Both the position numbers and the translations under genes were made by a program. Below are positions 1-22,941 of a stretch of DNA of 24,004 nucleotides, piece after piece (the first letter of the stretch is position 1; each line of letters opens with the position of its first letter). This DNA comes from a virus: positions 1 to 24,004 of IMG/VR virus record IMGVR_UViG_3300044993_000056, one strand, 5' to 3'. The notes under the pieces were generated by a model, which was not told where the DNA came from, did not search any database, and saw only the letters and a program-made list of their open reading frames with translations.

Positions 1-164
1 CCTTGAACAGTGTAGTGGGTGCCAAGCGTCAGCACTGTGTCCGTGTTGTTTTCAGTCAAAACAACTTTTACTTGGTTCGCGTTCCAGACCGGAAACAACC
101 GGGGGAACACCGTGGTGTTATTGTTCCCGACGTAAGTGCTTTTGTTGTTCTGGTTGGTGATCAT
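1..164 (-). CDS. Tail fibre / tailspike protein, N-terminal adaptor (partial, runs off left edge)
   Basis: The start codon ATG is at 164-162, four bases past the TAA of the giant upstream gene. An AAGGA ribosome site lies about 8 bases before it, inside the last codons of that gene. The 54 readable codons begin MITNQNNKSTYVGNNNTTVF and continue with a VKVVLTE strand, then TDTVLTLGTHYTV. This is the short N-terminal virion-anchoring module common to podovirus tail fibres and tailspikes, which docks the receptor-binding protein to the tail. Only the adaptor is visible, so the receptor-binding or depolymerase part and the total length are unknown. Its position directly after the core-protein genes fits a fibre gene. 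The identification rests on recalled family resemblance (YVGN...TVFP..F..W...VKV.....), not on a search. Confidence 0.75.
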   Translation of the reverse strand, partial: MITNQNNKSTYVGNNNTTVFPRLFPVWNANQVKVVLTENNTDTVLTLGTHYTVQ

Positions 165-167
165 CGC

Positions 168-3100
168 TTAATCCTTTCTATCAGTGAATCGCCGGATGTC
201 ATTGACGATGTTGTCTATGGGGGTGCCGGTGACAAACGCGGTGGCCCGGAACAAATCCATAGCGAATCTGCTCACGCCGTCGTCTTCTTGGAGCTTCTCC
301 GGATCGGCGGATTTAATGAGCTTACTGATTCTTCTGAAGCCTTCCATATAAGGCGATCTGTTCAGGTCTAGCAGTTGGCCTTTTGTCGCCAGAGTTCCCG
401 GAATGTCGCGGATAATCGGAATCCATTGGATCAAGTTTTCTATGGGTCCGACTAGGAATCTCCACCATTCGGGCGCGGTCCCGGCGATCGCGCTGTAAAG
501 CAATGTGCGGAGCCACGATTCCATAAAGACCTCATAGGTTATGTGCCGAATATAGTTTTTGGTTGACACTGCGCCTTCTGAGTAGGCCTTACCGTAGTAG
601 AACAGGCGGTTGCCAAATTTGAAGGACCACGTCATTAGCATGGTGAACAGTCGCACCCACCCCTCTGCTCTGGCGGCGGAGCTCATTTCCGCTTTGAGCG
701 CAGACGGCTGGGTGTCTTGAACGACGGTGTCAGCGTATTCCACGGCGGCTTTCTCCCGCTGTTCTAATGTCATGCTCTCATCAGCTAGAGTCTGGAGATA
801 CTTTTGATACGCGCCAGACCACACAACTGAAACCACAGCTCGGTCGTTCATTTTCATCCACTCAAACGCCAGATCGCGGACATTGCTCACAGTGAATTCC
901 CGCCCGGCAATCGTGAAGACTTTTTTGCCAAGTTGGATTCGGCTGACAATGTCGCGAATCTCGCGATCGATGTTGTCTTCCCGTTTTCGCATGTATTCGC
1001 TTTTCCCAATGATCGCGCTCCATGCGTCAGTGTTGGTTGTTCCAATCAACGCGGTGCCAAGCCCCTTTTGAGCAACGGCAGAGTATCCAATTCCGATCCA
1101 CTTCCACCCGCCAAGAGCCACCGCGGAGTTAAGCAGCGCAGTGCGCTGCGCGAGACCAGAGACGAGTTTATACCCCAACAACGCATAACTGGATCGGGCC
1201 CTAAGCCAGTCGGCGGCTTTGTCGAGCCCCCGGACCCAAGACTCAGTCTGCATACGTTTAGGCACCGCCTGATACTTGACCCAGTCTCGCAGCGCGTTGT
1301 AAGACTCGCGGCCAAATTTATCGAGATACGTTTCGCGCCATTCTTCTTTGGTCGATACGCGGTTCCAGTCTCGAATTACCGGCGCGAGCATTGCGTAGCG
1401 GCTCGCGTCGATAACATGATTGATCCACACATTGAGAGACAGTTCAGGCGGCAACGAGGTGCCTTGGCGTGTTTTAGCAAACCCGCTGTTTGGCGTGACC
1501 GAACGAAACACCGCAGCGGCTTTGTTCTTCATCAGGTCTTCTTCGTTGAACCTACCGGCGCGTGCATTGATTTCGTGGTCAAATATCAGCGGGTAGTAGC
1601 CGCCTCTTAGGTTGACGCCCGCGCCGTCTTTCGAACGGAGCACCAACGGATCGGCTTGGACTTTTTTGATTTCCCGGTTGTAGATTTTGATGTGGGTCTG
1701 ATTGATAGGCTCGAACAGCAGATCAGTGGCATCCCATATCTTCTGAATGGCGTAGAGCTCTTCAGCTGTTAGCAGAGCGGCCAATCGGTCGGCGGCATCT
1801 TCCGGAAGATTGTAGCCCTCTCGAAGCGCGGTGAGGTTGCCTTGGTTCCCGCAGTTGAGCAGCGCAGATACCACCATCTCACCGGTCCATTTGCCTTTGC
1901 CTTCGCGGACCATCGCATGTGGTAGCTCAAGCCCGTCGATGTCGAAATACTTTCCGCCCATCTCCTTCTCAATTCGTAGCACGGCTTGATGCAGCACTTG
2001 CCAAGCTGGTTCACTGGCCTTCAGCACTGTGTCAACCAGCTTAGATTGTTCCAGCTCAGCAGTGACGAGCCGCTGATAAAGCTTACGGAGCGGACCCTGT
2101 TTGCCTTCTTTCAGATTGGTGAAGCCGTCAGCAATGTCGGCCACGAATTGGGCCATCTGAACCCCGGCTTTGATCTGATGCGCGAACTGAATGAGCGGGT
2201 AGTTCCAATCTCCGCGCTGAGCGGTTTTGGCGTCTTTCAGTTTTTGCATACGCTCAACGCTACTCTGGACAAACTCGCTAAGCGTCTTCGCTTCTGATTC
2301 TTTGAGCGATGTCATGGCGTCACGGCCATACGCGACAATGCTCTTGATAGTTTCGTCAAGCTCGCGAACTTGGCTAAGTGTCAGATTCCGGTAGCCCCCG
2401 ATATTCTGTTTTTGCTTGATCCAGTCCGGCATCAAAGCGTCCAACCCGCCGTCTTCGTCGAGTTCACGCAAATCACTCAGATTAAACTCTGCGCCATCAA
2501 ACTGCAGCAGTCCATACCGTGACAACAAAGTCTGGACCACTGGCCGATACGCCATTTCAATTTTGTCGAGCAACGAATTGACTTTGCTCTTGGAATACCG
2601 CCGCTCTAAATTCTCACGGTATTTGCGAGCCTTGATGCTGGCCCGGACAATCGCGTGATACAAAAGTTGTTTTTCACGCAACTGGTAAGCACGGTCCCAG
2701 TCGCCTTTGCGGGCTGCGGCTAGGACTTCCGCGCCAAGGCGTTTTTCCTGATTCAGGAATCTAGAGTAATTTATCGAGTCTGAGAATTTGAGAGAGCCCA
2801 AGAACTCCTCAGCGGCCTGCGTGTAGGCTTCAGCAAAGAGCCGCGGTCGAACCGATTTTCTTTTTAATTTGGATCGTAGCAGCTCTGTTTCGGCGATCAG
2901 ATATTCTAGAGACTTGTCAGAATGCAGAGCTTCATCCGCTTCGGTGATAGGGCTTTTCGAAATGTCGTTGCGTATGGACTCTTCAACGCGGCGCAATTCT
3001 TGTTTGACAGCGGCATTGATTGCTTCGCTGATCGGGACCGCGTCACGTAGCTGTTCGGCGAGCTGCTCGCCGCTGGTCAGTCCAACATCAAAAGCGAGCC

Positions 3101-6100
3101 CGCTAATGTCTAGACCGTCATCGGTGATTAGATTCGGGTATTTATTAGCGAGGACCTCCACGGCGGAGTCACCAAGCAACGCGGCGATTGAACCAGCCGA
3201 TATGCCGCCTTGCGCTTTCGCTTTTTCGATTGCTTGGTAAACAGGCAGTGACTCAACTTGAGCTGTTTGCTCAGTCTTAATTTTGCTGAGACCGCCAAGG
3301 GCGCGAATGTATGCTTTCAGTCTGATCGATGTCTGGTGCTCCAATTCGGATCGCCGGGCGTCTTCTAGTTTCTGTTTGAGTTTTTCTTCGTCGTTTTCAA
3401 CGGCGATCAGGGCTAAAAGTCTGTCTCGGTTCCCGTAGAACTGTTCGGCCTGAGCGATTTCCTCTTCAGCCGCCAGCAGCCGGTCAAACACTTCTTTGAC
3501 CTCTTGGCTCATCTCAATGTCGAGAATTGAGCTGCCACGATAGACTGCAGTGAGCCAAGTCCTGAAACTGTGGAAAGCGCGGGCGAGCCCGATCGTCGGG
3601 GCGCGGCCTTCACGAAGATAGCTTTCAAAGGCCCGGGCCAGCTTTTCGTGCTGCTCAGTGGTCAGCTCTTTACTTGGGTCAAGCGCGCCAACAAAAGCCC
3701 GGAGCGTGTTGAGTTCGGCAAGGGCTTTCGGCCCGCCAAATCCAGCGCGAACTTGACGCTCCAGCTCCCCAACAAACAAGTGGCCCAATTCATGCAGCAA
3801 TGTGCTCAAGTTGGCGGTCTTGAACAGATGTATCGTCACGTTACCCGGATTGAATTCGATTGCTCCGTTAACCCGCGGCCCGCGGTCCTCGTTCTGGAAG
3901 TAGGCATTATTTTGCTGCTTCGTTTCGATCTCGTTAACGGCGGCGGCAATCTCAGGAATCTTGAGCTCGCCCGGTGTGAGCATTCGGATTATGGGGTCGA
4001 ATGTCTTAGCGTCTTTTCGATCCAGCCCTGTGTAGCCTGCGTTGGGCCCCCGCAAATCCGACACCAGCACATAAGCACCGGACGGAATCTGCACCACGTA
4101 AGTCTGCGCTGTGCTATCGGCGTTCAGCAGCAGAGATCGGAAGTTGGTGATTTTAACGGCCTTTTTATTTTCTAGCAATTTGTCAATTACGTCATTGACA
4201 TCAGCGTCATACCAGTTCGGCACGCCGAACATTTCTGGCTGGCTGATAAGCAGAGTCGGCGGACCATAGATGTCGGTCATGCCCAGCAGTTGAGTCGGCG
4301 TGCCCGAATTCATCGAATTCAGCAGCAGATACCGCTCAACAAGTCTGAGCTTGGTCTCTTCCGGAGTATTGCTAGAGGAGTCGTAAATATCCGCAGCGAG
4401 CCCGCCGTATCCGGTGATTATTAAGTCCTCAAGATGCAGGGCTGAGTCAAAGTCGAGGGCCTTAACGATTCCGGTCGGGGTCCTCCACAGCCCCATGACT
4501 TCGGAGCCGCCCGGCTGCTCCAGTTTGGCCCCGCCGACTATTTGCGCAATTTGATTTGCGTCGAGAACAGGTAGCGCGGCGAGAGTAGCCTGCGCCTGAT
4601 TACGTAGCTCGGACGCAAAGTAGAGTTGTTTCTCAGGCAGCGGAAGGCTAGCCAGAACCTGACTGCCGCCATTTTGAGCACTTGGGTCATTTTCACTTTG
4701 GAATAGTATCCTACCCGGAGAAGATTGTAAAGTCTTATCTGCAGACCGGATGATGTCCACGGCTTCGTTCATCACGGCCCGGATTTGCTGGGCCTCGGCA
4801 CTGCTGTCCGCTTTGAGCCGCCGTAGGAAATTATGGGCCTGAGCGACGGCCTTCAGCACATACTTAACGGCTCGGCTCTTGCCGGACGCCTCTTCGGTCG
4901 CGACATGATAAAGTTGCTTCTGAATGATGAGCCGAACAAACTCCGCACCGACACCGACATGGTCTTTTAGGCTCAAAGACGTATAGACTTTTTTGAGCGC
5001 GGCTTTTTCATCTTTGGTCATCAGCTTGGCCACGTTTTCGTGAAACTGTGTCCAGCTTAGGCCGCGTTTTCTGAGCACTTGACCAATCGCAGCGTGCACG
5101 ATTTCTTCGCGCATTGCCGCGCGAATCTCGTCGATAGTGTAGTCGTTTGCTAATGCCGATGGGTTGAATTCGATGTAATGGGAGCCTTGCCTGCCGGAAT
5201 AAATGTAGCTTGCGTCATGGCCAATGTAGTTCTGACTCAAGCCCGCTTTAAGTTTTCTGGCGATTGCGCCGAACTCACGTTCGATGAGTTGTTGGGCCTG
5301 AAGACTACTCAAGCCGCTCTTGGTTCGGGCTTCACCGTTTTCAGATTCAAGCCGGATGTTAACTCCGGCGGCGATGTCGTTTTCTTTAACGTCTGTATCG
5401 GAAACCCAGTTGCGCGGGTTTTGCTTAAATCCGTCAACCAACTTAAAAATCTTTTCTCGGGTTTCTTCTAGCGACTGACCACCGTTCTGGAATTCGGCCC
5501 ATTCTGCGGACACTTTTTCAACAAGGGCTTTATCCCGTTTCAGTGTGTCCGTGAATACTGAACGGGCCGCTTCCCAAACGATGCTTTGAAGTTCTCTTGA
5601 AGTGATACCGAGTTTAGAAGCCGCGCGCTTGTAGCCCTCATCATAGAGTATGTAAAGGCCTTTAAGCCCAAGCTCAGTGTTAGACGGCCCGCTAAAAACG
5701 TCATTGGCCGGTTTGCTTTTTTGACTTAAAGGCGCGAACAACGCGGCGGCGATAGCGTGCGTATCGATGGTTACACTTTCAGCGTTTGTTGGGTCAACGA
5801 TGTTATTGTAGAAGTTTCGTATTTTATGCGCGCCGCCCAGCAAATCGCTGATTTTTTCGATGTCTGCGCCTTTGAAAATTTCTATGGCTTTCTTTGTATT
5901 TCCATAGCTATTCCACGCCAATTCTGACAGTTTGCCTTCCTTGTCGATCGCTTTGCCGACCGGAGTTCCAGTGGGGTCGTAAATATGATAGCTGCGGTCT
6001 TGTGACTCAACATAAGCTCGCAGCATCCACGCCTGATGGTCCAGATTTTCAATTTCATTTATCGGCTTGCCTATTAGACCGGCCAATGCGTCTTTATCAG

Positions 6101-9100
6101 CAAGGGGTTTTTCCCCATCCGTTACAGAGTCCTCCAATCCTGCATAAAAACTGTCGATCAAATTTTGAGTGACGACGGCGGTAGGATCAGTCATTACCCG
6201 CATCACCCAAATGGCTTGTCCGATGTTGAGGTCCCAAGCCGTCCGCGGACTCAAAACAGCGATGATGGCCGACGATTGCTCTATCGTGATGCCGTATTTT
6301 TCAGCGAGTTCATTTGCTAGCCTATTCGCTCCAACATACCATCTGGAAGATTTTTCTCTGAAGTCTTTAGGAGTCTTGTTATACAGCCAGATCAAATTGT
6401 CTTCGATTCGCTCAACAAACTTTTTGATGAGGCCCTCTTTTTCTTTGTCGGTCATTTTTCCGACAAGCTCTTTTCTGATCTGCTTTTTCTTCTCTTTAAG
6501 CTTTTCGTCTTCTTTATCCGATTTAAGCCCCAAGAGCTCTAATTCGGTGGCTTTTCCGCCCAACTGAGGGTAGCCTTCCAGAAGGGCCCCGACCAAAGAA
6601 TCGACAAAACGCTTTGCTCCAAAGACGGCCTTAAAATCAGTAAATGCCGGAGAGCCTTCTTGAGTTTCCGCGCCAGTGGTGGATACAACTTGGCCACGGC
6701 GAACAACCGGGTCCCCGCTCACATAATGCACAAGCGGGCCGGTGCTGAACTTGTTGTTCAGATCACCTGCGGCTTTCAGGAACTTGTCCACTTTCTCAAA
6801 TGAATTTGAGGCGACATAGCCTTGGAAGTTTCCGGAGTCCCAATACTGCGCGACATAGCGGAAATTCTGAGCCAGCAGCTTTTCAAATTCTTGCCGCTGG
6901 ACCATATTGTCAACCATCCCGACGGTTTGCTCGTCCTGCTTGGATTGCGAGAATCCGACCTTCTCCGCTTTTTGTTTTTGCTCTTCTTCGGTGAAATACT
7001 TGTTTTTGTGCTCTTGGTCTTTGAACTTTTCGTTCTTTTCCCAGTCGGGGTTCAGCAGCTTTTCAGACGTTACAAATAGGCCGTCGTCTTTGAGCAGTCT
7101 TACGACTTCAGCAATTTGAGCTGTGCGGTCCGGGTCAATAAACTGAAAGCCCATCGACTCATGGATCGCGTCGTATTTTACGTCTGGATTATGGGCGTTG
7201 TATGTAACTCCGTCCTCCTCATCACGGAAGCCGTTGAGAAAGGCCTCCGCAGCAAATGCCGCACCGGGGGCCTGTGGCAGATCATCAAAGGTTTTCTTCA
7301 TGGCCCTGTTCGGGTCAAGAGACACAGTTTCGATTTTGCCTTTCGAAAGCGCGGAAATAGTCTTTCCGAAAGAGCCTTCAGACGCCGCAATGTCTAGAAC
7401 TTTGGAACCTTTGGGTAGCGTCAAAAAGCCTTTGATGGTTCTGACTTTCAATTCGTAAAAAGCCGGAATGCTCTTAAAAATGTGGTCATCGAAGTTACCA
7501 ATGTATTTGTGCATTTCTTCGATGATCTTTTTGTCTTTGGAAAGATCGATCAGCTCCGGCACAAACGGTATTTTGCTTTTTCCGAACAAGCCCGAAGTGA
7601 CTTTCCTGAAAAAGTCTTTGAACTCCAAACCGACTCTCGGCGAACGATTACTCGATTCGGGGGCCTCTTGGAAAAGCTGCTTACCGTTTTTATCGAAACG
7701 CGGGTGCGCAGCCCTCCATTCTTCGGCCCATCGCTGGAAGTCTTCGTCGGTGAAATTCGGGTTCTCAAGCATCTTCTGCCGCATGAACTCCCGCTGTTCT
7801 GCCATGTCTTTTGCGTAGAGTTCCTGCGGACTCGGTTGGCCTTCCGGAATAATCCAGATGCTTTTGCCGTCCGGAGCAAACACGGCTTTGGTGTTTACGT
7901 TGACATTAACGCCATTTGCGGACAGCCAATCTTCGACGGAGACATCTTGCCGTTTCGCAGCGATCGCGGCACCGGAAAGCATCAGATTCAAATAGTGGTC
8001 AATTTGCTCCTGAGTAAAACCCCCGCCGTCTTGGTTTCTAAAATTCTTGAGGGACTCTCGAATAGCTTGAATCTGCGCAGGCAACACACCGGTGCTTTCA
8101 GCGGCAAGCCGCTCACGAATGGTGTTGATCTCTTCGTTTAGCCACGCTTTCGTCATGGCCGCTTCATTGGCGGTCATGTTGTTTTCGCCAAACCGCAAGT
8201 CGGCCTTGATGGACTCGATGTTACTGACAGTAGCCGAATGCGCCAGATATGCAGAGTATTTGACTTTAAGCTCGCTAGCGGCTTCGTTTGTTAAAGCGTC
8301 AATGGCCTGCTGCTCAGAGACGCCAAGTTTGCCCATGAACTCAACATACTGTTCGTCGGTCTGGAACAGATTGCGAACCTTCGAGGCCGGAACAAACACT
8401 TCGTCGGAGACTTGGTGCTCATTGAGTATGGTTTCTACCGCAGATTGTGTTGCTTGCGGATCGGCGTTTTTAGCCGCAACGAATTTAATCTTTTCCGCAA
8501 GACCGTCATGCTGGGCAAGTTTGTTTTCGGCGTTGTGTATTTTCTTGTAGTTGAGCCCATAACTAGCTGTAGAAATTATAGTGCTCATAGCCGCGCCGCT
8601 GAACCCCCCGGCCAAAGCTGAATCTGAAATGCTGAACAGAAACTCCCGGAGCCCCATGTTTCCGTCGGTAGCTATGGTTACAAGATTTTGAAATGCCGAA
8701 GTCGCACCTTCAGAAACAGCTTCCGTAGCATACGATCTTGACGCCAAACCCAACATAGATTTGGGCGTTAATTTCTTAACACTGGAGGCCTCTTTAATAA
8801 TCCCAAGGGTCCCCAGTTTTTCGAACACGTATTCTAAGAGTCCGTGGCCCCCGGCTCTCACGATGGCGTTTTCTTTTGACGCCCCATCGCGTTGCGCTTC
8901 ATCAAACGCGCCGAAAGCGGACTTAGCGGACAATAACGCCATAGCCCCCGTTGGGTTGCCCGCGGCGGCTACGGACGCAGCCGCCCAATCATACAAAGAC
9001 TGGAGGCCTTGGTTAACAAATTGGTAAGCCCCCTCAGTGTAAAAGCCTTTCGAAATCAGCTCTGTCGGAGACTCCCCTGCTTGCGGCTTAAAAAAGTTCG

Positions 9101-9938
9101 CTGCTTTTTCCGGTGAAAAACCGCCCAGCATACTTTCGGCGATTTCGCTCCGGGCATTGCGTATTTCTATGCTTTGATTTAGAGCCTCGTCTTTGATCTT
9201 GATGAGCTCGTCCCGGACTTGTGGGTCAATGCCCGCGGGCAAGTTGTCGAGAATCTGCTGCCAATATGCGTCAGCCCTAGCAGCCGCTACAGCGTGATAC
9301 GAAGAAACTCCGGTGTCTAAAAGAGAGAATAAGGCGTTAACAATCCCGCGGGCCTGTTGAGTAAGAAAGCCCTCGTCCGCTTGCTTCGATTGCCGGACGG
9401 ACTCTTCAATTTCCATGAGGGCTTTTCTGCGCTCATTGTCGCCGATTAAATGCGACGGATCAGCCGCTAATTTGGCCAAAGCCGGATACAACGGCTCACC
9501 TTTTTCATCCGTCGCCAATAGCTCTTTGGCTATCTTGATCGACTCTTCAGAGGCCTTAATTTCCGGAAGCTGCTCTTTGGCTTTATCGGCGGGAAGATTA
9601 AAGCGGCGCATCACCGCTGCAATCTCGGCGGCTTTCTCTGGAGATTCTCCCATCCATTTAAGGCCTTCCTGAATGTCTCCGGATAGCTTGGCGACGTATT
9701 CGGCCCGGAGAGCCTTTGGCATTTTCAGCAGCTCGCCGGGTATCTGGTCAGCAAAAGCCGCCCCGCCCTTCGGCAATCGAAGAGACTCTTCTGCCGAAGG
9801 AAGCCCCGCGGCATCAAGCAAGCTGCTTCCGCTATCTGCCACAGATGGCTGGAGTTGTTTAGGCGCGGGAGGCGCGCTATCTAAACCAGCGGTTGCTAAA
9901 ATGCCGTTGTCTTCTTGGGGCTGCTCGAAAGGGTCCAT
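168..9938 (-). CDS. Giant multidomain polyvalent virion protein (gp16 position), 3256 aa
   Basis: A single open frame of 3256 codons. By position (after gp13-, gp14- and gp15-like genes, before the fibre) it corresponds to the T7 gp16 ejection protein, but it is more than twice as long. Readable parts: (a) Ala/Gly-rich hydrophobic stretches around residues 310-455, probably membrane-interacting; (b) a Rossmann SAM-methyltransferase domain around 800-970, with motif I VLDIAASEG at 847-855 and acidic D875; (c) a DUF7178-like domain around 1195-1450, with SPRTAWDLN from S1230 and TIDTHA with D1392/H1394; (d) a segment with EEIVH at 1611-1615; (e) a Kinase-PolyVal-like domain around 1750-2010 (K1826, ISQPE from 1898, D1961, N1966); (f) a zincin with HELGH at 2049-2053 and likely third ligand E2105; (g) charged helical regions around 2150-2560; (h) an LPD38-like C-terminus from about 2770 with a hydrophobic segment near 3142-3181. 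I saw no lytic transglycosylase motif. Such mosaics match the 'polyvalent proteins' of phages (Iyer and colleagues), thought to be delivered with DNA to counter host defences. The start is the first ATG after the preceding stop; no strong ribosome site is visible. Domain assignments are by eye. Confidence 0.85.
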   Translation of the reverse strand: MDPFEQPQEDNGILATAGLDSAPPAPKQLQPSVADSGSSLLDAAGLPSAEESLRLPKGGAAFADQIPGELLKMPKALRAEYVAKLSGDIQEGLKWMGESPEKAAEIAAVMRRFNLPADKAKEQLPEIKASEESIKIAKELLATDEKGEPLYPALAKLAADPSHLIGDNERRKALMEIEESVRQSKQADEGFLTQQARGIVNALFSLLDTGVSSYHAVAAARADAYWQQILDNLPAGIDPQVRDELIKIKDEALNQSIEIRNARSEIAESMLGGFSPEKAANFFKPQAGESPTELISKGFYTEGAYQFVNQGLQSLYDWAAASVAAAGNPTGAMALLSAKSAFGAFDEAQRDGASKENAIVRAGGHGLLEYVFEKLGTLGIIKEASSVKKLTPKSMLGLASRSYATEAVSEGATSAFQNLVTIATDGNMGLREFLFSISDSALAGGFSGAAMSTIISTASYGLNYKKIHNAENKLAQHDGLAEKIKFVAAKNADPQATQSAVETILNEHQVSDEVFVPASKVRNLFQTDEQYVEFMGKLGVSEQQAIDALTNEAASELKVKYSAYLAHSATVSNIESIKADLRFGENNMTANEAAMTKAWLNEEINTIRERLAAESTGVLPAQIQAIRESLKNFRNQDGGGFTQEQIDHYLNLMLSGAAIAAKRQDVSVEDWLSANGVNVNVNTKAVFAPDGKSIWIIPEGQPSPQELYAKDMAEQREFMRQKMLENPNFTDEDFQRWAEEWRAAHPRFDKNGKQLFQEAPESSNRSPRVGLEFKDFFRKVTSGLFGKSKIPFVPELIDLSKDKKIIEEMHKYIGNFDDHIFKSIPAFYELKVRTIKGFLTLPKGSKVLDIAASEGSFGKTISALSKGKIETVSLDPNRAMKKTFDDLPQAPGAAFAAEAFLNGFRDEEDGVTYNAHNPDVKYDAIHESMGFQFIDPDRTAQIAEVVRLLKDDGLFVTSEKLLNPDWEKNEKFKDQEHKNKYFTEEEQKQKAEKVGFSQSKQDEQTVGMVDNMVQRQEFEKLLAQNFRYVAQYWDSGNFQGYVASNSFEKVDKFLKAAGDLNNKFSTGPLVHYVSGDPVVRRGQVVSTTGAETQEGSPAFTDFKAVFGAKRFVDSLVGALLEGYPQLGGKATELELLGLKSDKEDEKLKEKKKQIRKELVGKMTDKEKEGLIKKFVERIEDNLIWLYNKTPKDFREKSSRWYVGANRLANELAEKYGITIEQSSAIIAVLSPRTAWDLNIGQAIWVMRVMTDPTAVVTQNLIDSFYAGLEDSVTDGEKPLADKDALAGLIGKPINEIENLDHQAWMLRAYVESQDRSYHIYDPTGTPVGKAIDKEGKLSELAWNSYGNTKKAIEIFKGADIEKISDLLGGAHKIRNFYNNIVDPTNAESVTIDTHAIAAALFAPLSQKSKPANDVFSGPSNTELGLKGLYILYDEGYKRAASKLGITSRELQSIVWEAARSVFTDTLKRDKALVEKVSAEWAEFQNGGQSLEETREKIFKLVDGFKQNPRNWVSDTDVKENDIAAGVNIRLESENGEARTKSGLSSLQAQQLIEREFGAIARKLKAGLSQNYIGHDASYIYSGRQGSHYIEFNPSALANDYTIDEIRAAMREEIVHAAIGQVLRKRGLSWTQFHENVAKLMTKDEKAALKKVYTSLSLKDHVGVGAEFVRLIIQKQLYHVATEEASGKSRAVKYVLKAVAQAHNFLRRLKADSSAEAQQIRAVMNEAVDIIRSADKTLQSSPGRILFQSENDPSAQNGGSQVLASLPLPEKQLYFASELRNQAQATLAALPVLDANQIAQIVGGAKLEQPGGSEVMGLWRTPTGIVKALDFDSALHLEDLIITGYGGLAADIYDSSSNTPEETKLRLVERYLLLNSMNSGTPTQLLGMTDIYGPPTLLISQPEMFGVPNWYDADVNDVIDKLLENKKAVKITNFRSLLLNADSTAQTYVVQIPSGAYVLVSDLRGPNAGYTGLDRKDAKTFDPIIRMLTPGELKIPEIAAAVNEIETKQQNNAYFQNEDRGPRVNGAIEFNPGNVTIHLFKTANLSTLLHELGHLFVGELERQVRAGFGGPKALAELNTLRAFVGALDPSKELTTEQHEKLARAFESYLREGRAPTIGLARAFHSFRTWLTAVYRGSSILDIEMSQEVKEVFDRLLAAEEEIAQAEQFYGNRDRLLALIAVENDEEKLKQKLEDARRSELEHQTSIRLKAYIRALGGLSKIKTEQTAQVESLPVYQAIEKAKAQGGISAGSIAALLGDSAVEVLANKYPNLITDDGLDISGLAFDVGLTSGEQLAEQLRDAVPISEAINAAVKQELRRVEESIRNDISKSPITEADEALHSDKSLEYLIAETELLRSKLKRKSVRPRLFAEAYTQAAEEFLGSLKFSDSINYSRFLNQEKRLGAEVLAAARKGDWDRAYQLREKQLLYHAIVRASIKARKYRENLERRYSKSKVNSLLDKIEMAYRPVVQTLLSRYGLLQFDGAEFNLSDLRELDEDGGLDALMPDWIKQKQNIGGYRNLTLSQVRELDETIKSIVAYGRDAMTSLKESEAKTLSEFVQSSVERMQKLKDAKTAQRGDWNYPLIQFAHQIKAGVQMAQFVADIADGFTNLKEGKQGPLRKLYQRLVTAELEQSKLVDTVLKASEPAWQVLHQAVLRIEKEMGGKYFDIDGLELPHAMVREGKGKWTGEMVVSALLNCGNQGNLTALREGYNLPEDAADRLAALLTAEELYAIQKIWDATDLLFEPINQTHIKIYNREIKKVQADPLVLRSKDGAGVNLRGGYYPLIFDHEINARAGRFNEEDLMKNKAAAVFRSVTPNSGFAKTRQGTSLPPELSLNVWINHVIDASRYAMLAPVIRDWNRVSTKEEWRETYLDKFGRESYNALRDWVKYQAVPKRMQTESWVRGLDKAADWLRARSSYALLGYKLVSGLAQRTALLNSAVALGGWKWIGIGYSAVAQKGLGTALIGTTNTDAWSAIIGKSEYMRKREDNIDREIRDIVSRIQLGKKVFTIAGREFTVSNVRDLAFEWMKMNDRAVVSVVWSGAYQKYLQTLADESMTLEQREKAAVEYADTVVQDTQPSALKAEMSSAARAEGWVRLFTMLMTWSFKFGNRLFYYGKAYSEGAVSTKNYIRHITYEVFMESWLRTLLYSAIAGTAPEWWRFLVGPIENLIQWIPIIRDIPGTLATKGQLLDLNRSPYMEGFRRISKLIKSADPEKLQEDDGVSRFAMDLFRATAFVTGTPIDNIVNDIRRFTDRKD

Positions 9939-9962
9939 AATAAAGGCACGTTAAATACTTTT

Positions 9963-11699
9963 TTACTTATTAAGGGAGTCCAGCTTAAATTTAACGGGCT
10001 CCCCATTTTTATCGTAAAATTCGGAATATCGGCGACCGCCCATTTCGAACACGCGATACCATTTGATTTTGCCCGGCAACGACGGAACGCGCTCCCGGTC
10101 GTTAAGAGTCACGGGCTTCAATCCGGAGATAGGCTCACCGTCACCGCCCCTTAACTTTTCCGGCACAGCATACTCGCTTGTGAGATATTCGTGCATGTAA
10201 AGCGGGATCATCTTTTTCGTGAACCACCAAGTGCGGTCCCCGTTAAATACAGGCGTCTGCGCTTTTTTGATTTCCTGATCGATCCTTAATTGGGTCCGCT
10301 CAGACTCTGGAATCTGACTAATCACGTTGTCCATGTATGCGCAGAAAGCGTTGTATTTAAGACGGTCTTCTTCGTCGCCGTTCGAATTGAGGCCTATGCT
10401 TTTTGCCGCTTGTCGGACTTGGGCCTCGGCGGATTCCGTTCTAAACTGCTTTGGCGGTTTCGGCCCGGCAAACGCGCCGTTTGCCTTAATCGTGTCCATT
10501 TGGGCAAGTATAAGACTCCTAAAATGGTCGTTGCTCAACTGGCTGCTATAGTCTTCCAGCTTGAGCTTAGCAAACCCCGCCGGGTCATTTTGCTGCATAT
10601 CGAGCAATTTGTGAAAAGTGGCGTAGTTAGTCGGCCTGTCACCCTCAAGCAAATTCATCTGGAACCGGGCGATTTTAGACTGCAAATCGCTAGGAAGAGA
10701 CTCGGGGACTTTGGCACCGCGGGGGTCTTGCAAAATCGCATCGAGGGCCTCGTTGATCTGCGACCTCTCGGCTTCAGTGATTTTTGACTCTTCGACCATG
10801 TAGGCCTTCATGAATGTTTGCTTGAGCTCTTCCCTCTTGACAGGATCACTGACCCCCATTTCGTCCAAAGTCTTGTCAGCCGCTTCAGAGCCTGGGACTT
10901 TTCCGTGGACGGCCTGAATAGCCGCATTCTCCACAGATCTCTTTTTAACCATTTGGTCCAGTGCCCCGGCGAGTTTGTCGTGGACTTCCGGGGCCATGTA
11001 GTCCTTATATTTTTCGGCCAATGCTAAAGCTTCAGCCGGATCGCGGTCGGCGATTGTAGCGATTGCTCGGGCGTAAACTTCGGAGATTTTGTTTCGCTTC
11101 TGTTCTTCGATGAATTCCGGTGCACGGCCACGGTGCTGCTCTTCGACCATGTTAGCGACTTTTATCGCTGTGTCGTGCAGATAATTTTCGTTGTAAGGAT
11201 TCTGCGAAGCCGAATAAATCGAAGACTCAATTCCTGAGCTTAAAGTATCCAGTCGGTATTGCTCTTGGGCTTTAGCGCGGAACCCAATCACGGACTCTAA
11301 ATTATTAGTCCGAAGCTGCGCAAATGCTTTCCCGAACAAGGCTTGCTGACGTTGGTTAAGCTTCGAGCTTGATTCAGCACCGATCTTGTCGAGAGTTTCC
11401 GCGGCTTTATCTGCAGCAGTTAAGGCCTCAGAACCGCTCTTGCTATAGACATCATTCTGGAGAAAATGCGTCGCTTTGAGCGTGGCGTCATTAAGCGCGC
11501 TTTGCACGACGAGCCTGTCATGTTCGTCAAGCCGCTCCCGATAAAGTGCCGCGGCCTGCTGCAGAAAATCGTTGCCAGCCGCGCCAAGTCGCTGAAGATT
11601 GACTGCGTCTCTATAGCCGAAAGCGTCCGCTGTTACGTTCGGCGTATTAAGCGGGTTGTTTCGGACTTGGCCCGGTTCGTATGTTGGAATAACTGGCAT
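9963..11699 (-). CDS. Internal virion (core) protein, gp15-like position, 578 aa
   Basis: I start at ATG 11699 (MPVIPTYEPGQ), three bases after the upstream TGA; an in-frame TTG at 11705 is the alternative. The protein is hydrophilic and almost wholly helical by appearance. It has repeated Ala/Glu/Lys/Gln-rich stretches (residues about 40-290), no signal peptide, no transmembrane segment and no recognised catalytic motif. Its last third is richer in Trp, Tyr and Pro. Its slot between the gp14-like gene and the giant gene is that of T7 gp15, a core protein that forms the DNA-ejection channel with gp14 and gp16. The role is therefore inferred from gene order, length class (T7 gp15 is about 750 aa) and composition, not from a motif. 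It ends 24 bases before the giant gene, consistent with co-expression. Confidence 0.6.
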   Translation of the reverse strand: MPVIPTYEPGQVRNNPLNTPNVTADAFGYRDAVNLQRLGAAGNDFLQQAAALYRERLDEHDRLVVQSALNDATLKATHFLQNDVYSKSGSEALTAADKAAETLDKIGAESSSKLNQRQQALFGKAFAQLRTNNLESVIGFRAKAQEQYRLDTLSSGIESSIYSASQNPYNENYLHDTAIKVANMVEEQHRGRAPEFIEEQKRNKISEVYARAIATIADRDPAEALALAEKYKDYMAPEVHDKLAGALDQMVKKRSVENAAIQAVHGKVPGSEAADKTLDEMGVSDPVKREELKQTFMKAYMVEESKITEAERSQINEALDAILQDPRGAKVPESLPSDLQSKIARFQMNLLEGDRPTNYATFHKLLDMQQNDPAGFAKLKLEDYSSQLSNDHFRSLILAQMDTIKANGAFAGPKPPKQFRTESAEAQVRQAAKSIGLNSNGDEEDRLKYNAFCAYMDNVISQIPESERTQLRIDQEIKKAQTPVFNGDRTWWFTKKMIPLYMHEYLTSEYAVPEKLRGGDGEPISGLKPVTLNDRERVPSLPGKIKWYRVFEMGGRRYSEFYDKNGEPVKFKLDSLNK

Positions 11700-11701
11700 G
11701 G

Positions 11702-12202
11702 TCAACCGGCTTGTGCTTGTGGCGGCTTCTCTTTCGACGGAAACGAGGTTCTGTAAATGCCAAGCGTGTTGCTTGCGCCAGCCAGAAGCGAAGAGGCCCC
11801 CGCCAAAGCAGCGGAGCCTTTAGACGCCCTTGCAATGCTGGCCTGAGCTCTGTAAGCCCACGCATCCCGCTCGGCGTTGTTTTTAATCGTCAAAGCGTCA
11901 AGTTCCCCAAATTTCGCAGCATCGGCCTGAATATCCATTGCAGAGCCGTCTTCGATCTGAACGCCGCTCGCACCGAGTCCGGCCCGCTGCGAGCCGATCA
12001 ATCGTTTGACTTCGGCGCGTTTTTTATCGGCCTCGATTTGACCGCGGGCGATCGCGTCCTTGGCCATCATCTCGTTGTATTTAGCTTGGGCCTCCGCTTG
12101 TCGGTTTTGCGCTTGTTGGGCGGCATACGCGCCGTAAGCACCAACGGCTGTAGAAATCACGCTAAGGGCAACCATTGCCACTGGGATTGCTGGGGCGCAC
12201 AT
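11702..12202 (-). CDS. Internal virion protein, T7 gp14-like, 166 aa
   Basis: Begins MCAPAIPVAMVALSVISTAV, an N-terminal hydrophobic segment of about 20 residues. A Gln/Ala-rich coiled-coil region follows (AYAAQQAQNRQAEAQAKYNE and onward). Then comes the family hallmark around residues 70-90, GSQRAGLGASGVQIEDGSAM, and a helix ending in an N-A-E-R-D-A-W-like pattern. These are the features of T7 gp14-type core proteins, which insert in the host outer membrane during DNA ejection. A second Ala/Gly/Ser-rich segment lies near residues 128-145. The start overlaps the upstream gene by 41 bases. The C-terminus is short, Pro/Gln-rich and disordered-looking. Confidence 0.75.
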   Translation of the reverse strand: MCAPAIPVAMVALSVISTAVGAYGAYAAQQAQNRQAEAQAKYNEMMAKDAIARGQIEADKKRAEVKRLIGSQRAGLGASGVQIEDGSAMDIQADAAKFGELDALTIKNNAERDAWAYRAQASIARASKGSAALAGASSLLAGASNTLGIYRTSFPSKEKPPQAQAG

Positions 12203-12683
12203 AGCTTTTTATCCAGAATCGGTGGAATGGAAGTTTATCAACGCCATACGGTTCCGCGGGTTCCACCGTAAACCCGCACCACCGCAGCCACCGAATAGCC
12301 GCCTTGTGGCGGGCATCGGTGTAATTTTCCAACATTGGAAAATCGGCCCTCATCATTTCGACATAGTAAATTGACCGTCTGGCCAAAGCAACGTCTTGGC
12401 TTGGCGTCAGCGGGGCCGACAAGAACCACGGAACGCCAATAGACGTGAATGCAGAGTTCGCCGTGACGCCGAACATCAGTTTGACTTCGTTCCCGTCAAG
12501 ACCGGTCCACGCTTTACCGTATTTACTCCGGACACCTAAAAGCAAGGCGTCTAATGGCGTGGCCCTATTCGCCGCCCATATTTCGGCCACGTCTTCGTCA
12601 CGGAGTTTGGGCGCCAATTCGTAAGCGTCCTGCTCTGTGGCCTCGCGGACCCAATAGCGGCTATCGGTCTTAGTCTTGGCCAT
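12162..12683 (-). CDS. T7 gp13-like internal virion protein / GNAT-like (DUF2833), 173 aa
   Basis: The pattern REATEQDAYELAPKLRDEDV, then EIWA, then a GxxP-like core with VKLMFGV, GVPWFLSA and a C-terminal AIRWLRWCGFTVEPAEPYG, resembles phage gp13/DUF2833 proteins. These have an acetyltransferase-like (GNAT) outline; the last motif looks like the late GNAT strand-helix seen in 'wLek.GF' sequences. In T7, gp13 is a minor internal protein needed for core assembly. Enzyme activity is not established for the family, and no clear acetyl-CoA pyrophosphate loop (Q/RxxGxG/A) is visible. The start overlaps the tail tubular B gene by 14 bases and the end overlaps the gp14-like gene by 41, indicating translational coupling. 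Confidence 0.65.
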   Translation of the reverse strand: MAKTKTDSRYWVREATEQDAYELAPKLRDEDVAEIWAANRATPLDALLLGVRSKYGKAWTGLDGNEVKLMFGVTANSAFTSIGVPWFLSAPLTPSQDVALARRSIYYVEMMRADFPMLENYTDARHKAAIRWLRWCGFTVEPAEPYGVDKLPFHRFWIKSYVRPSNPSGNGCP

Positions 12684-14700
12684 CGCTAATAACGGCGGTC
12701 ACGCTGGTTATTGTGCAGGGGACCGGGCTCCGCACTTCAAACGATATGCGGGCGTCTCTAAGACCGGACGGCGAAACAAATATCTCTTTGTCCCCGGTGA
12801 AAGGCTCGATCGGTTCGCCGTAGTCTTCCGTGTCTCGCATTGGGACTTCAAAATACTCATACCCGGGAGCGGTAGCCGCCCACAGCTCTCGGCTGTCCCG
12901 GAGCCCCACGATGACACTGGAGACCTGCCGCCGAACAGACAGCGCGGAGTTTGTTTCGGCAACTTGGTAGTCGAATCCTATCGGTTCGCAAACGCATGTG
13001 TATGGCAGGCCGACATGGACTTTAGCTGCCGGGTTGGGGAGCGTGATTGAACCGTTACTTACTTCAAGGTCCGGCACTACGTTGCCGTCAGCAAAAGCAA
13101 CAACCGTGCGACCGTTCAAATGGCTTAGACCAGAAATTGTGGTCGCTGGGGGCCCGGAATACGTCAGACCGCTATCGACAAAAAACGCATCCTCGATGTT
13201 GTCGAAGTCTCTTTCGGCCAATCGCTCAACATAGCGGACCTGCTGACCGCCGACCGTGCGGCGCACTACTACCCACACTTGAGATTGGCCCTCGCCAACG
13301 GTAGGGCACACCACGCTTTCAATGACTCCGTCCGTTGTGTGCCTCGCCCATGCGTAAACTTTGTGGCCTTTGTGGTATGTCAGGCTACATAACACGCCGT
13401 CTTCACGAAGGGCCCATAACACGGAATCCGGATACTTCGCGTGCCCCCACTGCACTATTTTGCTTTTATCAAAAAGGTGCTGCGCCAACACTGTTAAATC
13501 GTCGCCAGCGTAACCGTCTTTTTCGAGCGAGTAGCCCATGTCACGGATTCGTTTTTGACTCCCGTCAACAAAAAGCACAGCGTCGCCGACAATGTGGGGT
13601 TGTAAATCCGCGCAACCCCATCGACTTTGGATTTTAAGTTTAACGGAAGATGGCGTTATGGCTGGTTGATTAGGCGACGGTGCCATGAGCCATTCGCTAT
13701 CACTAGTCCCGACAATGAGGTCGCCCATTGACGCGAGCCAGCGAATTTCATTAACTGAAGACGAGTCAATCGTAAACTGGATGCCGTCGTCGTCTTGAAC
13801 TGGCGACGATCTGTTATGGTTTCGGAAATCCCCGGTTCGGGAGCCCCAAATGGTTTGCGGGCGGTTATTGGTTCTGGCGAGATAGAGCCTTTGATCGTGG
13901 AAGGCCCCTACAGCCGGGTAGTTGTTAGCGGTTTCAAACGGCAGCACGTTTTTAGGCGGTGTTCTTTTTACGTCCCTTGACGGGTTGGTAGGAGTTACAA
14001 TGCTTGTTAACTCAGTCCGCATTATGTAGGCCCACGCGCCGTTATACTTTTCATAGACGTTATAGTATTCCGCGCCGGTTACGGCGGTCCAAACTAGCGT
14101 GTAGCCTCTACCGTTAATAAGAAACTGATTGGACGACAAAGACTCTACGCCGCTTGAATCGACGGCGGTTACAGCGTAAGCAAATGAAGGGTCGCTGCCT
14201 GGGTATCCGTAGGACGTAATTGTCGGAGCAGCTATGCCTGTTCCGTTTGTCTGGACAGACAGCGTCCAGTTATTATGCGAGATTCTTGTAAGCTCGCGCA
14301 TTTTGTGGTTAGGAGAAAAAATGTAAAGAATGTCCGCGCTTTGCTCGAACTTCAATTTCGGTAAATCGGCTTCTGTGTAAGGAGTCGAAATTTCGTATAT
14401 ATTGTTGTTAGTGTCTAGTATAACGCCGTCGTCTTTGTAGAAGCGAATATATTGGTCTCCGAACTCAAGCACATACCACTGCACAACCGAAAACTGGAAA
14501 GCCCAAAGCCTAGACTTTTTGTTGTTGAACTTAGTGCCGTTAACAAAGCGGAAACCGGGCCGGTTTTCGACTGAGCCGCGGACCCGGGGCAAAAAATTCT
14601 CAAGTCTGCGAAGCGACGACGCCCACTTCTCCAAATCAGGCCGGACCCACAGTTCGGGCGATATTTCGCCACCGGTGAAAGACGCCTGACGAATTTTCAT
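12670..14700 (-). CDS. Tail tubular protein B-like (tail nozzle/stabilisation protein), 676 aa
   Basis: I use ATG 14700 (MKIRQASFTGGEISPELWVR). It overlaps the TGA of the tail tubular A gene as ATGA, so the nine residues in frame upstream of it are not needed. The N-terminal signature F.GGE.SP.L..R.DL..W...L....NF.P...G....RPG..F is shared by podovirus tail tubular B/stabilisation proteins, which form the nozzle tip of the short tail. The rest is rich in beta strands with repeated WGSRTGD, IRWLASMGDLIVGTSDSEW and VVVRRTVGG-type blades, as expected for a propeller-bearing nozzle protein (T7 gp12 is about 790 aa). The C-terminal 80 residues contain a VRSPVPCTITSVTAVI strand pair. Confidence 0.8.
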   Translation of the reverse strand: MKIRQASFTGGEISPELWVRPDLEKWASSLRRLENFLPRVRGSVENRPGFRFVNGTKFNNKKSRLWAFQFSVVQWYVLEFGDQYIRFYKDDGVILDTNNNIYEISTPYTEADLPKLKFEQSADILYIFSPNHKMRELTRISHNNWTLSVQTNGTGIAAPTITSYGYPGSDPSFAYAVTAVDSSGVESLSSNQFLINGRGYTLVWTAVTGAEYYNVYEKYNGAWAYIMRTELTSIVTPTNPSRDVKRTPPKNVLPFETANNYPAVGAFHDQRLYLARTNNRPQTIWGSRTGDFRNHNRSSPVQDDDGIQFTIDSSSVNEIRWLASMGDLIVGTSDSEWLMAPSPNQPAITPSSVKLKIQSRWGCADLQPHIVGDAVLFVDGSQKRIRDMGYSLEKDGYAGDDLTVLAQHLFDKSKIVQWGHAKYPDSVLWALREDGVLCSLTYHKGHKVYAWARHTTDGVIESVVCPTVGEGQSQVWVVVRRTVGGQQVRYVERLAERDFDNIEDAFFVDSGLTYSGPPATTISGLSHLNGRTVVAFADGNVVPDLEVSNGSITLPNPAAKVHVGLPYTCVCEPIGFDYQVAETNSALSVRRQVSSVIVGLRDSRELWAATAPGYEYFEVPMRDTEDYGEPIEPFTGDKEIFVSPSGLRDARISFEVRSPVPCTITSVTAVISDGQD

Positions 14701-20737: not shown

Positions 20738-21352
20738 TTACCACGCCACCCAGCCATAGCAACTACCCCCGCAGCCCTTGGCTTTTTGGTCGCTCATGGA
20801 ATCAAGCGTTCTCGCGACTTCGGCCACACTCTCGTGGCCTTCCGCGATTCGGGCGGACCATGCCAGATACCGGCTGCTCAATCGGCTTTCTGAAGAATGC
20901 CGTCTTTCGGCCTCATTTGTGATACCGCTATTTTTTCGTAGGCCTCTACGCTCAATGAGCACCACAGAGCCCCCAAGACTTCTCACCAGTTCGGCTTCTT
21001 CAGGGAACCTCACATCATCGATGACGACTTTGCAGACTCCTTCCATGTGCAACCGCTTGATTTTTTCCGCGGCAAGATCGACCCATATTGTAGGCGAAAC
21101 CAGATTGCGCCCCCACTCAGTGCCGAGCGTTTGGAGTAAATAGCGAGTCGTTTTGCCATTAAACGCGGCCAGTGCTGGGGGCGAGTTTTTGTTGGCAAGA
21201 TCGTCTTCAGAAAGGCCTATCGCTTTGAGCATTTCTTTGATTGGTGTGGATAGCGACATGCGAGTCCAGCCCAACCGTTCTAGTTCTTTTGCCAGTGTGC
21301 TTTTTCCAACTCCAGCATAGCCGTGGAGCCCGATGACTTGTAAAGTTTCCAT
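20738..21352 (-). CDS. Deoxynucleoside monophosphate kinase, 204 aa
   Basis: The P-loop GYAGVGKST is at residues 11-19 when starting at ATG 21352 (METLQVIGLHG). It is followed by the family block LQTLGTEWGRNLVSPTIWVD and by VVIDDVRFPEEAELVRSLGG, equivalent to the 'DVRF.nEa' motif of phage dNMP kinases. It phosphorylates dNMPs to dNDPs, using ATP, to feed phage DNA synthesis. The frame is open up to TTG 21484, but that extension would cross a terminator hairpin and a promoter, so I take METLQ as the start. Only a short leader and no clear ribosome site precede it. The C-terminal tail, KAKGCGGSCYGW, is Cys/Gly-rich and unusual for the family. It ends nine bases before the lysozyme-like gene. 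Confidence 0.8.
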   Translation of the reverse strand: METLQVIGLHGYAGVGKSTLAKELERLGWTRMSLSTPIKEMLKAIGLSEDDLANKNSPPALAAFNGKTTRYLLQTLGTEWGRNLVSPTIWVDLAAEKIKRLHMEGVCKVVIDDVRFPEEAELVRSLGGSVVLIERRGLRKNSGITNEAERRHSSESRLSSRYLAWSARIAEGHESVAEVARTLDSMSDQKAKGCGGSCYGWVAW

Positions 21353-21364
21353 GTTCACAATTCG

Positions 21365-21393
21365 ATAGTAGCCCCGCGTCGCTTCAGTCGCAA
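21365..21393 (-). promoter_or_regulatory. Sigma70-like promoter upstream of the dNMP kinase gene
   Basis: On the minus strand TTGCGA (21393-21388) and TACTAT (21370-21365) are separated by exactly 17 bases; each matches 4 of 6 consensus bases. The expected transcription start (about 21358) is only about six bases before ATG 21352. The element lies just downstream of a terminator hairpin in the window's only gap over 100 bases, where a new transcription unit would be expected. It is a sequence match only. Confidence 0.45.
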
Positions 21394-21397
21394 CGCA

Positions 21398-21432
21398 AAA
21401 CGGGCCGGACAGCAACACCGCTATCCGGCCCG
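21398..21432 (-). terminator. Rho-independent terminator after the large terminase gene
   Basis: On the minus strand GGGCCGGATAGC (21431-21420), loop GGTGTT, GCTGTCCGGCCC (21413-21402) gives a 12-bp GC-rich stem with one G-U wobble, then G and TTTT. In the plus-strand RNA the wobble becomes a C-A mismatch and no T run follows, so the signal is oriented with the genes. It lies about 50 bases after the terminase stop. The T run is short, so partial read-through is possible. Confidence 0.65.
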
Positions 21433-21480
21433 CCACACAACTCACACAGGGCAAAACCCATGAACCAACATCAGCATACA

Positions 21481-22941
21481 TCAAATACCGGGCCCGTCAA
21501 GTGCCTTAAACACGTCGTATTCGGTTTCGAGTCGATTGGATGGCCGTTGCTTGATGGGCCCGCTGCGGGTGATGTCCTGTTGTATATGCACAGGCGCGGC
21601 AAACGTGAGGGCCAATGCGTCACCGATGTCCGGGGATCGAAGGCCTCTCCGTTTCATGTCTTTTTTCGATTCGAGGGCCTTTTTGCCGTTCGGCAAAATG
21701 AAGCACTGCGGCGCGGTGAGATCGGTAACAACCGCATCGGCTCCGCGGGTTTCGGAGCCTTGAGAGGCGGGCCACAAGGTGCCTCCAGATTCAAGCCATT
21801 GCAGCATGTCGAACCACATTTGGGTTCGTTTGTTGTGATACATCGGGCTACTGGACGCACCACCGAAATTGACCGGCATCGGATTTCGACCGAGCCTTCG
21901 CAAATAGTCGATGACTCCGGAGCCCCATCCGATGTCGATGAAGCACGCTGCTGCTTTATACTGAGTCCACCACTGATTCACCAAATCCCCCAATGTCTGG
22001 CTGTCCATTTTGGCAAACACACCAAGGCACTTAGAGGCGAGGCCCTGACGCATCACCACGACTGAGCGGTCGTCACCTTCCCATGCTGGATCAACGCCAA
22101 GCACGACCGGAGCAAATTCGTATTCATGCCGGGCCAGTTTCCGGTTCATCGCCGTTTCAACCAGTGTGCGCGGTATCAACTGATTGATCGAAGACTGCGG
22201 GAACTCACCAAGCACACGGACCCGATACACATCGGAGTCTTCGCCCCACTCTTGGCGCATCTCTTCGACATAGTTCTGGTCCGCCAGTTTGGAGTTGGTG
22301 CACGACAACGTGAACCGCCGCCACATGTGTGCATTGCGGTGAAACGTATTGTAGGCATATCCGGACGTGGCCGTCGGGTTCCCAATCAGCAGAGCGCGGG
22401 CCCCTTTAGTTGTTAGCGCGCCACGTGCGACTTCATAAATGGAATCTGCGACACCGAATGACTCTTCGATGATGAAAGCCATATTGGTAGCGTGGAGGCC
22501 CTGCAGCGCATCGGGTGATTCCGGCCTCGCTGTGCGAGCGGTCAGAAACTGAGTTTTTTCCGCTCCTTTGACATGGAGGCTTTTACCGGTCACGACCAAC
22601 TGATTGCGGAACCACGGGTTCATTCGGCCATGCCACTTAGCGATTTCAGCCATCAGCACGTCATGCAACTGTTGGGCCGAAGGAGCTGTGGCACCGACTT
22701 TGCAATCCGGAAATAGCGGGACAAACCAGAGAGCGGCCCAGCTCGCCACCGCTGTTTTTCCGACACCGTGGCCGGCCTTAACGGTTACTTTCGCGCCCGG
22801 CTGAGCGAAGGCCCTAAGAATTTCGGCTTGGTTGGACTCTGGTTCGACACCGATGACTTCCCGGGCATAAAGAACCGGATCAGTGCGCCACTGGTCCAGT
22901 TTTTGCCTGAGCCTGTTGATGTTCTCCAGATTGGTCGTCAT
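21481..22941 (-). CDS. terL: Terminase large subunit (packaging ATPase and nuclease), 486 aa
   Basis: The N-terminal ATPase has Walker A GHGVGKT at residues 57-63 and Walker B FIIEE at 156-160 (catalytic E160 or E159). An SGNP-like coupling region reads LLIGNPTATSG. The C-terminal RNase H-like nuclease shows the acidic set: D284 in GVDPAWEGDD, D336 in FIDIGWGSGVIDYL, and D438/D441 in SPDIGDALAL. Together with the small subunit it recognises, cuts and pumps phage DNA into the prohead through the portal. The ATG overlaps the TGA of the small subunit gene (ATGA). A terminator follows the stop codon, so the resolvase-terminase genes seem to form a transcription unit separate from the head and tail genes. 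Confidence 0.92.
   Translation of the reverse strand: MTTNLENINRLRQKLDQWRTDPVLYAREVIGVEPESNQAEILRAFAQPGAKVTVKAGHGVGKTAVASWAALWFVPLFPDCKVGATAPSAQQLHDVLMAEIAKWHGRMNPWFRNQLVVTGKSLHVKGAEKTQFLTARTARPESPDALQGLHATNMAFIIEESFGVADSIYEVARGALTTKGARALLIGNPTATSGYAYNTFHRNAHMWRRFTLSCTNSKLADQNYVEEMRQEWGEDSDVYRVRVLGEFPQSSINQLIPRTLVETAMNRKLARHEYEFAPVVLGVDPAWEGDDRSVVVMRQGLASKCLGVFAKMDSQTLGDLVNQWWTQYKAAACFIDIGWGSGVIDYLRRLGRNPMPVNFGGASSSPMYHNKRTQMWFDMLQWLESGGTLWPASQGSETRGADAVVTDLTAPQCFILPNGKKALESKKDMKRRGLRSPDIGDALALTFAAPVHIQQDITRSGPIKQRPSNRLETEYDVFKALDGPGI

Follow-up and report, generated by a model that had tools for sequence, protein, structure and literature searches.

A giant Bbp10-type polyvalent protein with a CmoA-like methyltransferase and a DUF7178 domain in its payload slot

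Why should a phage encode a single polypeptide of 3256 residues at the place where T7 has gene 16, and what might such a polypeptide carry? The question is posed by a virus record of 24,004 bases that is probably incomplete and is termed the window here. An earlier note on this DNA had picked out the 3256-codon gene, which is indeed a single uninterrupted ORF, on the minus strand (Table 1), and had taken its product for a polyvalent protein of several enzyme domains that enters the host with the DNA. The answer favored here, and considered probable as a whole, is that of a Bbp10-type polyvalent internal virion protein consisting of a framework and a slot, which is ejected and, once released by its zincin, supplies a nucleic-acid-modifying payload. 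The phage would be a BPP-1/epsilon15-like podovirus, and the slot, residues ~705-1957, holds a CmoA-like methyltransferase, a DUF7178 domain and a further stretch of ~440 residues. No clear Shine-Dalgarno sequence is apparent in the 24 bases upstream of the giant's ATG (9939-9962, minus strand).

Table 1. Positions in the window of the giant gene, its parts and selected neighbors
Feature	Positions	Strand	Residues	Remarks
Gene of giant polyvalent, probably ejected, protein (P0001)	168..9938	minus		3256 aa; phrog_9880, E 1e-137
N-terminal framework block	7839..9851	minus	~30-700	common to L096, L097, L099
Payload slot	4068..7826	minus	~705-1957	absent from closest relatives
CmoA-like class-I SAM methyltransferase domain	6735..7658	minus	761-1068	phrog_4752 'tRNA methyltransferase', E 6e-11
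DUF7178 domain	5397..6464	minus	1159-1514	Pfam PF23802, E 1e-27; invariant K1372, D1392
Stretch after DUF7178	4068..5396	minus	1515-1957	no homologs found
C-terminal framework block	177..3932	minus	2003-3254	phrog_9880/Bbp10-type core
Zincin (metallopeptidase) region	3459..3932	minus	2003-2160	HELGH at 2049-2053 (3780-3794)
gp15-position protein	9963..11705	minus		phrog_10475 ('endolysin') match, N-terminal
gp14-like internal virion protein	11702..12202	minus		PF24072, E 6e-7; phrog_418, E 2e-38
gp13-position internal virion protein	12162..12683	minus		phrog_308
Deoxynucleoside monophosphate kinase-like gene	20738-21484	minus		phrog_139, E 1e-37

On the minus strand the gene order is terminase small subunit (phrog_51), terminase large subunit, the deoxynucleoside monophosphate kinase-like protein (phrog_139), whose gene adjoins that of the large subunit, portal, protease-type protein (phrog_458), major capsid protein, tail proteins (phrog_394, phrog_376), the phrog_308 protein, the gp14-like and gp15-position proteins and finally the giant. 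The run transcribed ahead of the giant, from the tail protein (phrog_376) through the gp13-, gp14- and gp15-position genes, reproduces the order of T7 genes 12-16. To this extent the description of the cassette as 'otherwise T7-like' is apt, but it does not extend to the portal (PF12236, E 4e-167), the major capsid protein (PF20911, GP7, E 2e-146) or the terminase, with its matches of epsilon15/phiV10 type, all of which are of epsilon15/phiV10/BPP-1 type. Likeness to T7 gp16 itself is a matter of place in the order 12-13-14-15-16: gp16 has 1318 residues as against 3256, no transglycosylase domain was found in the giant, and hhalign detected no sequence homology between the two (P 0.17 over 18 columns). 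A search of solved structures (PDB) with the C-terminal core similarly gave no significant match. A motif of that core, LRGGYYPLxYD (alignment columns 775-792), resembles KGTYVPHVYD of T7 gp16 657-674, a resemblance not significant by itself. A review points out that in P22 and epsilon15, too, the protein at the gp16 position is little like that of T7 though the synteny matches (PMC8954989).

To which family, then, does the giant belong? Judged by its C-terminal part, it is a member of the BPP-1 Bbp10/phrog_9880 polyvalent family: residues 2006-3242 match phrog_9880 (E 1e-137), and the homologous core of ~1200 residues with invariant HExxH that characterizes the family is present. Homologs were found by tblastn in 43 phage records, among them those of BPP-1 (Bbp10), Cobetia phage Carin1 (gp32) and Pseudomonas phage AF as well as Caulobacter, Xanthomonas and Vibrio phages. 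A single-sequence search of viral contigs with the C-terminal part found no match, though an alignment of that part used as query found hundreds, with relatives encoded in at least 595 viral-contig stretches; a further 99 relatives, mostly proteobacterial, are in bacterial genomes. The gene tables of BPP-1, Carin1 and vir555 have the homolog in the same genome position, and the genes of phrog_9880 proteins come after gp13/14/15-position genes just as in the phage considered here. Bbp10, Carin1 gp32, the phage AF protein and Caudoviricetes vir555_00054 have the same C-terminal core with zincin as the giant, and Bbp10 and Carin1 have an LPD22-type N-terminus. The comparison proteins are shorter (1974-2854 residues versus 3256) and differ in payload: that of Bbp10 is PBECR1, that of Carin1 PBECR5, and no methyltransferase or DUF7178 was found.

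The case for a polyvalent protein, and probably an ejected one, is thereby well supported, since Bbp10-type homologs in the same position carry LPD22, ART-PolyVal and PBECR1/3/5. Named combinations of polyvalent domains in relatives are LPD22 with PBECR5 (Carin1), LPD22 with PBECR1 (Bbp10), and LPD22 with ART-PolyVal (L097, L099 and phage zth2-2). The giant itself is encoded among late virion genes, as is characteristic of phage polyvalent proteins, and has the several unrelated domains in one polypeptide (methyltransferase, DUF7178, zincin) that are their other hallmark. It thus fits the available passages of Iyer et al. 2017 (PMC5512222), where polyvalent proteins are multi-domain, zincin-containing and encoded among virion genes. 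The methyltransferases in those passages are mostly DarB-type adenine methyltransferases fused to helicases; neither DUF7178 nor a CmoA-like methyltransferase is mentioned there, and the word 'glycosylase' is absent from the text available.

Comparison with the closest complete relatives (L096, L097 and L099; 2100-2223 residues) reveals the anatomy. These align with residues ~30-700 and ~1960-3253 of the giant and have nothing matching residues ~705-1957. Their N-terminal region, homologous to that of the giant, is LPD22, which alignment places at ~92-189 of the giant even though the giant has no Pfam match for it at E<1. In the same slot L097 and L099 have an ADP-ribosyltransferase domain (ART-PolyVal), while nothing was recognized in that of L096. 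A domain scan of the region up to the zincin in 36 homologs found LPD22 in 34, with ART-PolyVal in 10, PBECR5 in three, GGDEF, MuF_C and LPD3 in two each, and PBECR3, LPD23, RadC, GNAT, HATPase, Pol-beta and DUF7178 in one each. Between 229 and 2964 residues precede the zincin (median 1085), and the 2048 of the giant are reached by only five of the 62 complete homologs.

What follows the slot is far less variable. The HELGH noticed earlier at 2049-2053 is no chance occurrence, with 0.04 HExxH expected by composition and HExxH kept in 80 of 81 homologs; in a 40-sequence alignment the H, E and H of the zincin never vary, nor does an E further on. The zincin is therefore, on these alignments, part of the framework, opening its C-terminal block, and not an optional effector or extra cargo. 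Across the ~80 homologs compared, Bbp10-type proteins have, as judged by sequence, a constant framework in which an exchangeable enzyme slot precedes the invariant zincin. A second, degenerate zincin was considered near 1589-1625 (IEFNP...EEIVH) and rejected, its score being equaled by the shuffled middle segment in 141 of 500 trials. In phage zth2-2 (L005, OL791268.1; 36256-40470 and 2-5083 involved) LPD22, ART-PolyVal and DUF7178 are on one ORF while the zincin and C-terminal core are on the next, in another frame and overlapping at the start of a record that is marked UNVERIFIED. Hydrophobic segments had been proposed near both ends of the giant, but the best 21-residue Kyte-Doolittle mean there is ~1.1, and therefore no typical transmembrane helix is present.

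Does the slot of the giant hold enzymes? Structure prediction by segment together with profile searches recovered an enzyme fold in the methyltransferase segment and the DUF7178 match in Pfam. The SAM-methyltransferase motif noted at 847-855 (VLDIAASEG) lies within the first of these domains, which has the phrog_4752 match and shares ~38-40% identity with a Maribacter phage Panino domain. CmoA (4iwn, E 4e-8) is the PDB entry that the AlphaFold2 model of residues 740-1545 (mean pLDDT 80, folded cores mostly >85) matches best in structure, and more CmoA entries are among the top matches. When nine phage domains are combined into a profile, this aligns with residues 27-241 of E. coli CmoA (prob 95.7, E 1e-8) and, among solved structures, with YecO/CmoA 1im8 (E 1.6e-6). 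TIGR00740 is matched by six of the nine, and by the copy in the giant weakly and far below cut-off (E 0.0019). PADLOC gave a weak generic methyltransferase match to mad2 (E 2e-6), and a single viral fold search returned mainly uncharacterized Caudovirales proteins and methyltransferases.

The domain shares with CmoA, the carboxy-SAM synthase, its fold and a full-length profile alignment; it differs in being embedded within a giant phage protein and in one telling residue. Throughout the CmoA family Arg199 is conserved, and it forms a salt bridge with the carboxyl of carboxy-SAM (PMC3663124). At its position the nine phage domains have A/S/N/S/K/A/A/G/G, in a register that agrees with the profile alignment to E. 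coli CmoA, though the adjoining Lys198 is invariant. With Arg199 lost, the domain is thus a CmoA relative without the carboxy-SAM feature, and on this comparison a plain SAM methyltransferase is more likely than a carboxy-SAM enzyme. True CmoA is used by phages for 5-carboxymethylcytosine (PMC12783734).

The second payload domain had been described as DUF7178-like around residues 1195-1450, which the Pfam match (E 1e-27) bears out while extending it to about 1159-1514. Relatives of this domain are encoded in at least 584 viral stretches, its neighbors in other phage proteins being ART, InPase, PBECR5, RadC, GNAT and GGDEF domains. A protein of Roseobacter phage CRP-738, encoded near the portal gene, has it at its end. 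No papers naming DUF7178 were found in the literature searched, and PDB sequence searches with it gave no match. Four residues, K1372, D1392, T1393 and H1394, are invariant in all 41 DUF7178 sequences compared, whereas a Gln kept in 39 of the 41 is Arg1232 in the giant. In the model a helix at 1360-1367 and a short GG hairpin lead to a helix at 1371-1381, starting with H1371-K1372, and D1392 caps a helix at 1393-1400.

The arrangement is reminiscent of a well-known one. In HhH-GPD glycosylases such as endonuclease III and OGG1, the second helix of the hairpin begins with the catalytic Lys, and the helix after it has the catalytic Asp as its cap. The DUF7178 model has a Lys so placed and, 18-20 residues further on, a helix-capping Asp, and both motif order and helix arrangement are like those of EndoIII, OGG1 and AGOG. 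A compact, stand-alone mycobacteriophage form of 191 residues (L287:1456-2031, L289-L302), annotated 'glycosylase' by its depositors, matches Pfam DUF7178 (E 5e-73), aligns with giant-type DUF7178 (E 4e-31) and has KT...LN...VD with a Lys-Asp spacing of 18; by comparison the DUF7178 of the giant, ~350 residues, has an internal insertion. Among the Foldseek matches listed for DUF7178, 1xqp, an 8-oxoguanine glycosylase, has the joint highest probability (0.47, E 0.54), tied with a TetR regulator. Against the Nth/MutY/AlkA profiles, DUF7178 with or without its internal insertion does not rise above shuffles; the giant type is equaled in score by 31/60 and 7/60 of them, and the compact form, which does slightly better and whose catalytic register is aligned, is nevertheless equaled by 10/60 and 1/60. 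Neither profile nor fold scores are significant, so the relationship to HhH-GPD DNA glycosylases is a lead only, for which the odds seem about even. The larger proposition, that DUF7178 is a divergent HhH-GPD DNA glycosylase ejected with the CmoA-derived methyltransferase, the two being a base-modifying/base-excising pair that acts at entry on nucleic acid of host or phage, is rather unlikely when taken as a whole.

For the remaining stretch, residues 1515-1957, no homolog was found in the loci and collections searched. A kinase-like domain had been suggested at 1750-2010 (3909-4691), starting inside this stretch; it has no Kinase-PolyVal (PF18762) match at E<1, no homologs and a low-confidence structure model, mostly at pLDDT <60, and the suggestion is not upheld. 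The search for PF18762 covered 50 contigs and gave no match in any of them, controls included, and is accordingly of little weight.

How rare is the combination? The surmise that it and its order may be undescribed holds as to rarity and not as to uniqueness, since L025 shares the order CmoA-like methyltransferase, DUF7178, zincin, with a GGDEF-like stretch ahead of the zincin, in the same gene cassette and on an ORF ending close to the end of the contig. Among all ORFs scanned, the giant is alone in having both domains together with the full C-terminal core. Other arrangements were met with in passing. In L094 an ORF (7036-14571) has DUF7178 first and then the CmoA-like domain, without the Bbp10-type core. 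A protein of >3100 residues in Rhodobacteraceae phage LS06-2018-MD07 (L007, OP947163.1, 1-9336) has another kind of methyltransferase immediately ahead of DUF7178, as well as a weak ART match. In L010 and L011 (ORF 1-14205) DUF7178 is inside ORFs of >4700 residues open at the locus start. Giant polyvalent proteins, including those of Bbp10 type with LPD22, are already known; what is new, as far as the sources searched show, is a Bbp10-type framework with both a CmoA-like domain and DUF7178 as payload, the comparison in terms of framework and slot, and the hypothesis that DUF7178 is a glycosylase.

Could the payload be something other than a set of working enzymes? One may envisage degenerate or structural domains, with the giant being essentially a DNA-ejection and envelope-crossing protein whose variable middle would do no enzymatic work in the host. 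The lost Arg199, Arg1232 in place of the prevalent Gln, the ~440 residues (1515-1957) with their low-confidence model and the slot of L096 with nothing recognized would all be in keeping with this. It is nevertheless unlikely, given that all nine methyltransferase domains retain the SAM-site Asp and seven of them the Glu164 position, that K1372 and D1392 are invariant in 41 of 41 and that enzyme families fill the same slot in relatives. That the giant is instead a late lysis enzyme acting on the cell wall at the end of infection and not at entry, as the annotation of homologs as 'lysin' and 'lysis protein', the description of OANV1 gp16 as lysis-related through Bbp10 (PMC9239159) and the phrog_10475 'endolysin' match of the neighboring gp15-position protein might suggest, is highly improbable for a protein in which Pfam and NCBIfam reveal no peptidoglycan-hydrolase domain, which is encoded in an internal-virion-protein cassette adjoining gp14-like genes and whose payload families comprise ARTs, RNases and nucleotide enzymes.

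For the preferred reading, an ejected Bbp10-type protein with an enzymatic payload, the following course may be pictured. The giant would sit in the head core and, from its gene context and relatives, probably travels inside the particle and enters the bacterium together with the DNA, being the gp16-position protein in a gp14/15/16-position set. No proteomic report of the giant or a homolog in virions was found, which counts against this step. The slot would deliver enzymes to the cytoplasm, because ARTs, PBECR nucleases and GGDEF domains fill the same slot in sister proteins. The payload may be processed or released by the zincin; zincin processing is part of the polyvalent-protein proposal in the passages available of PMC5512222. 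Early in infection the payload would then modify nucleic acid, whether tRNA or DNA bases, and such modification might help takeover, for instance of translation, or evasion of host defense.

The payloads of Bbp10-type proteins are hereby extended by two types, DUF7178 and a CmoA-like methyltransferase. Given the framework-and-slot anatomy, cultured relatives can be used to test directly whether these podoviruses deliver protein and what part the zincin plays. Moreover, should DUF7178 prove related to glycosylases, a large uncharacterized family would gain a hypothesis for its function and two named residues to mutate.
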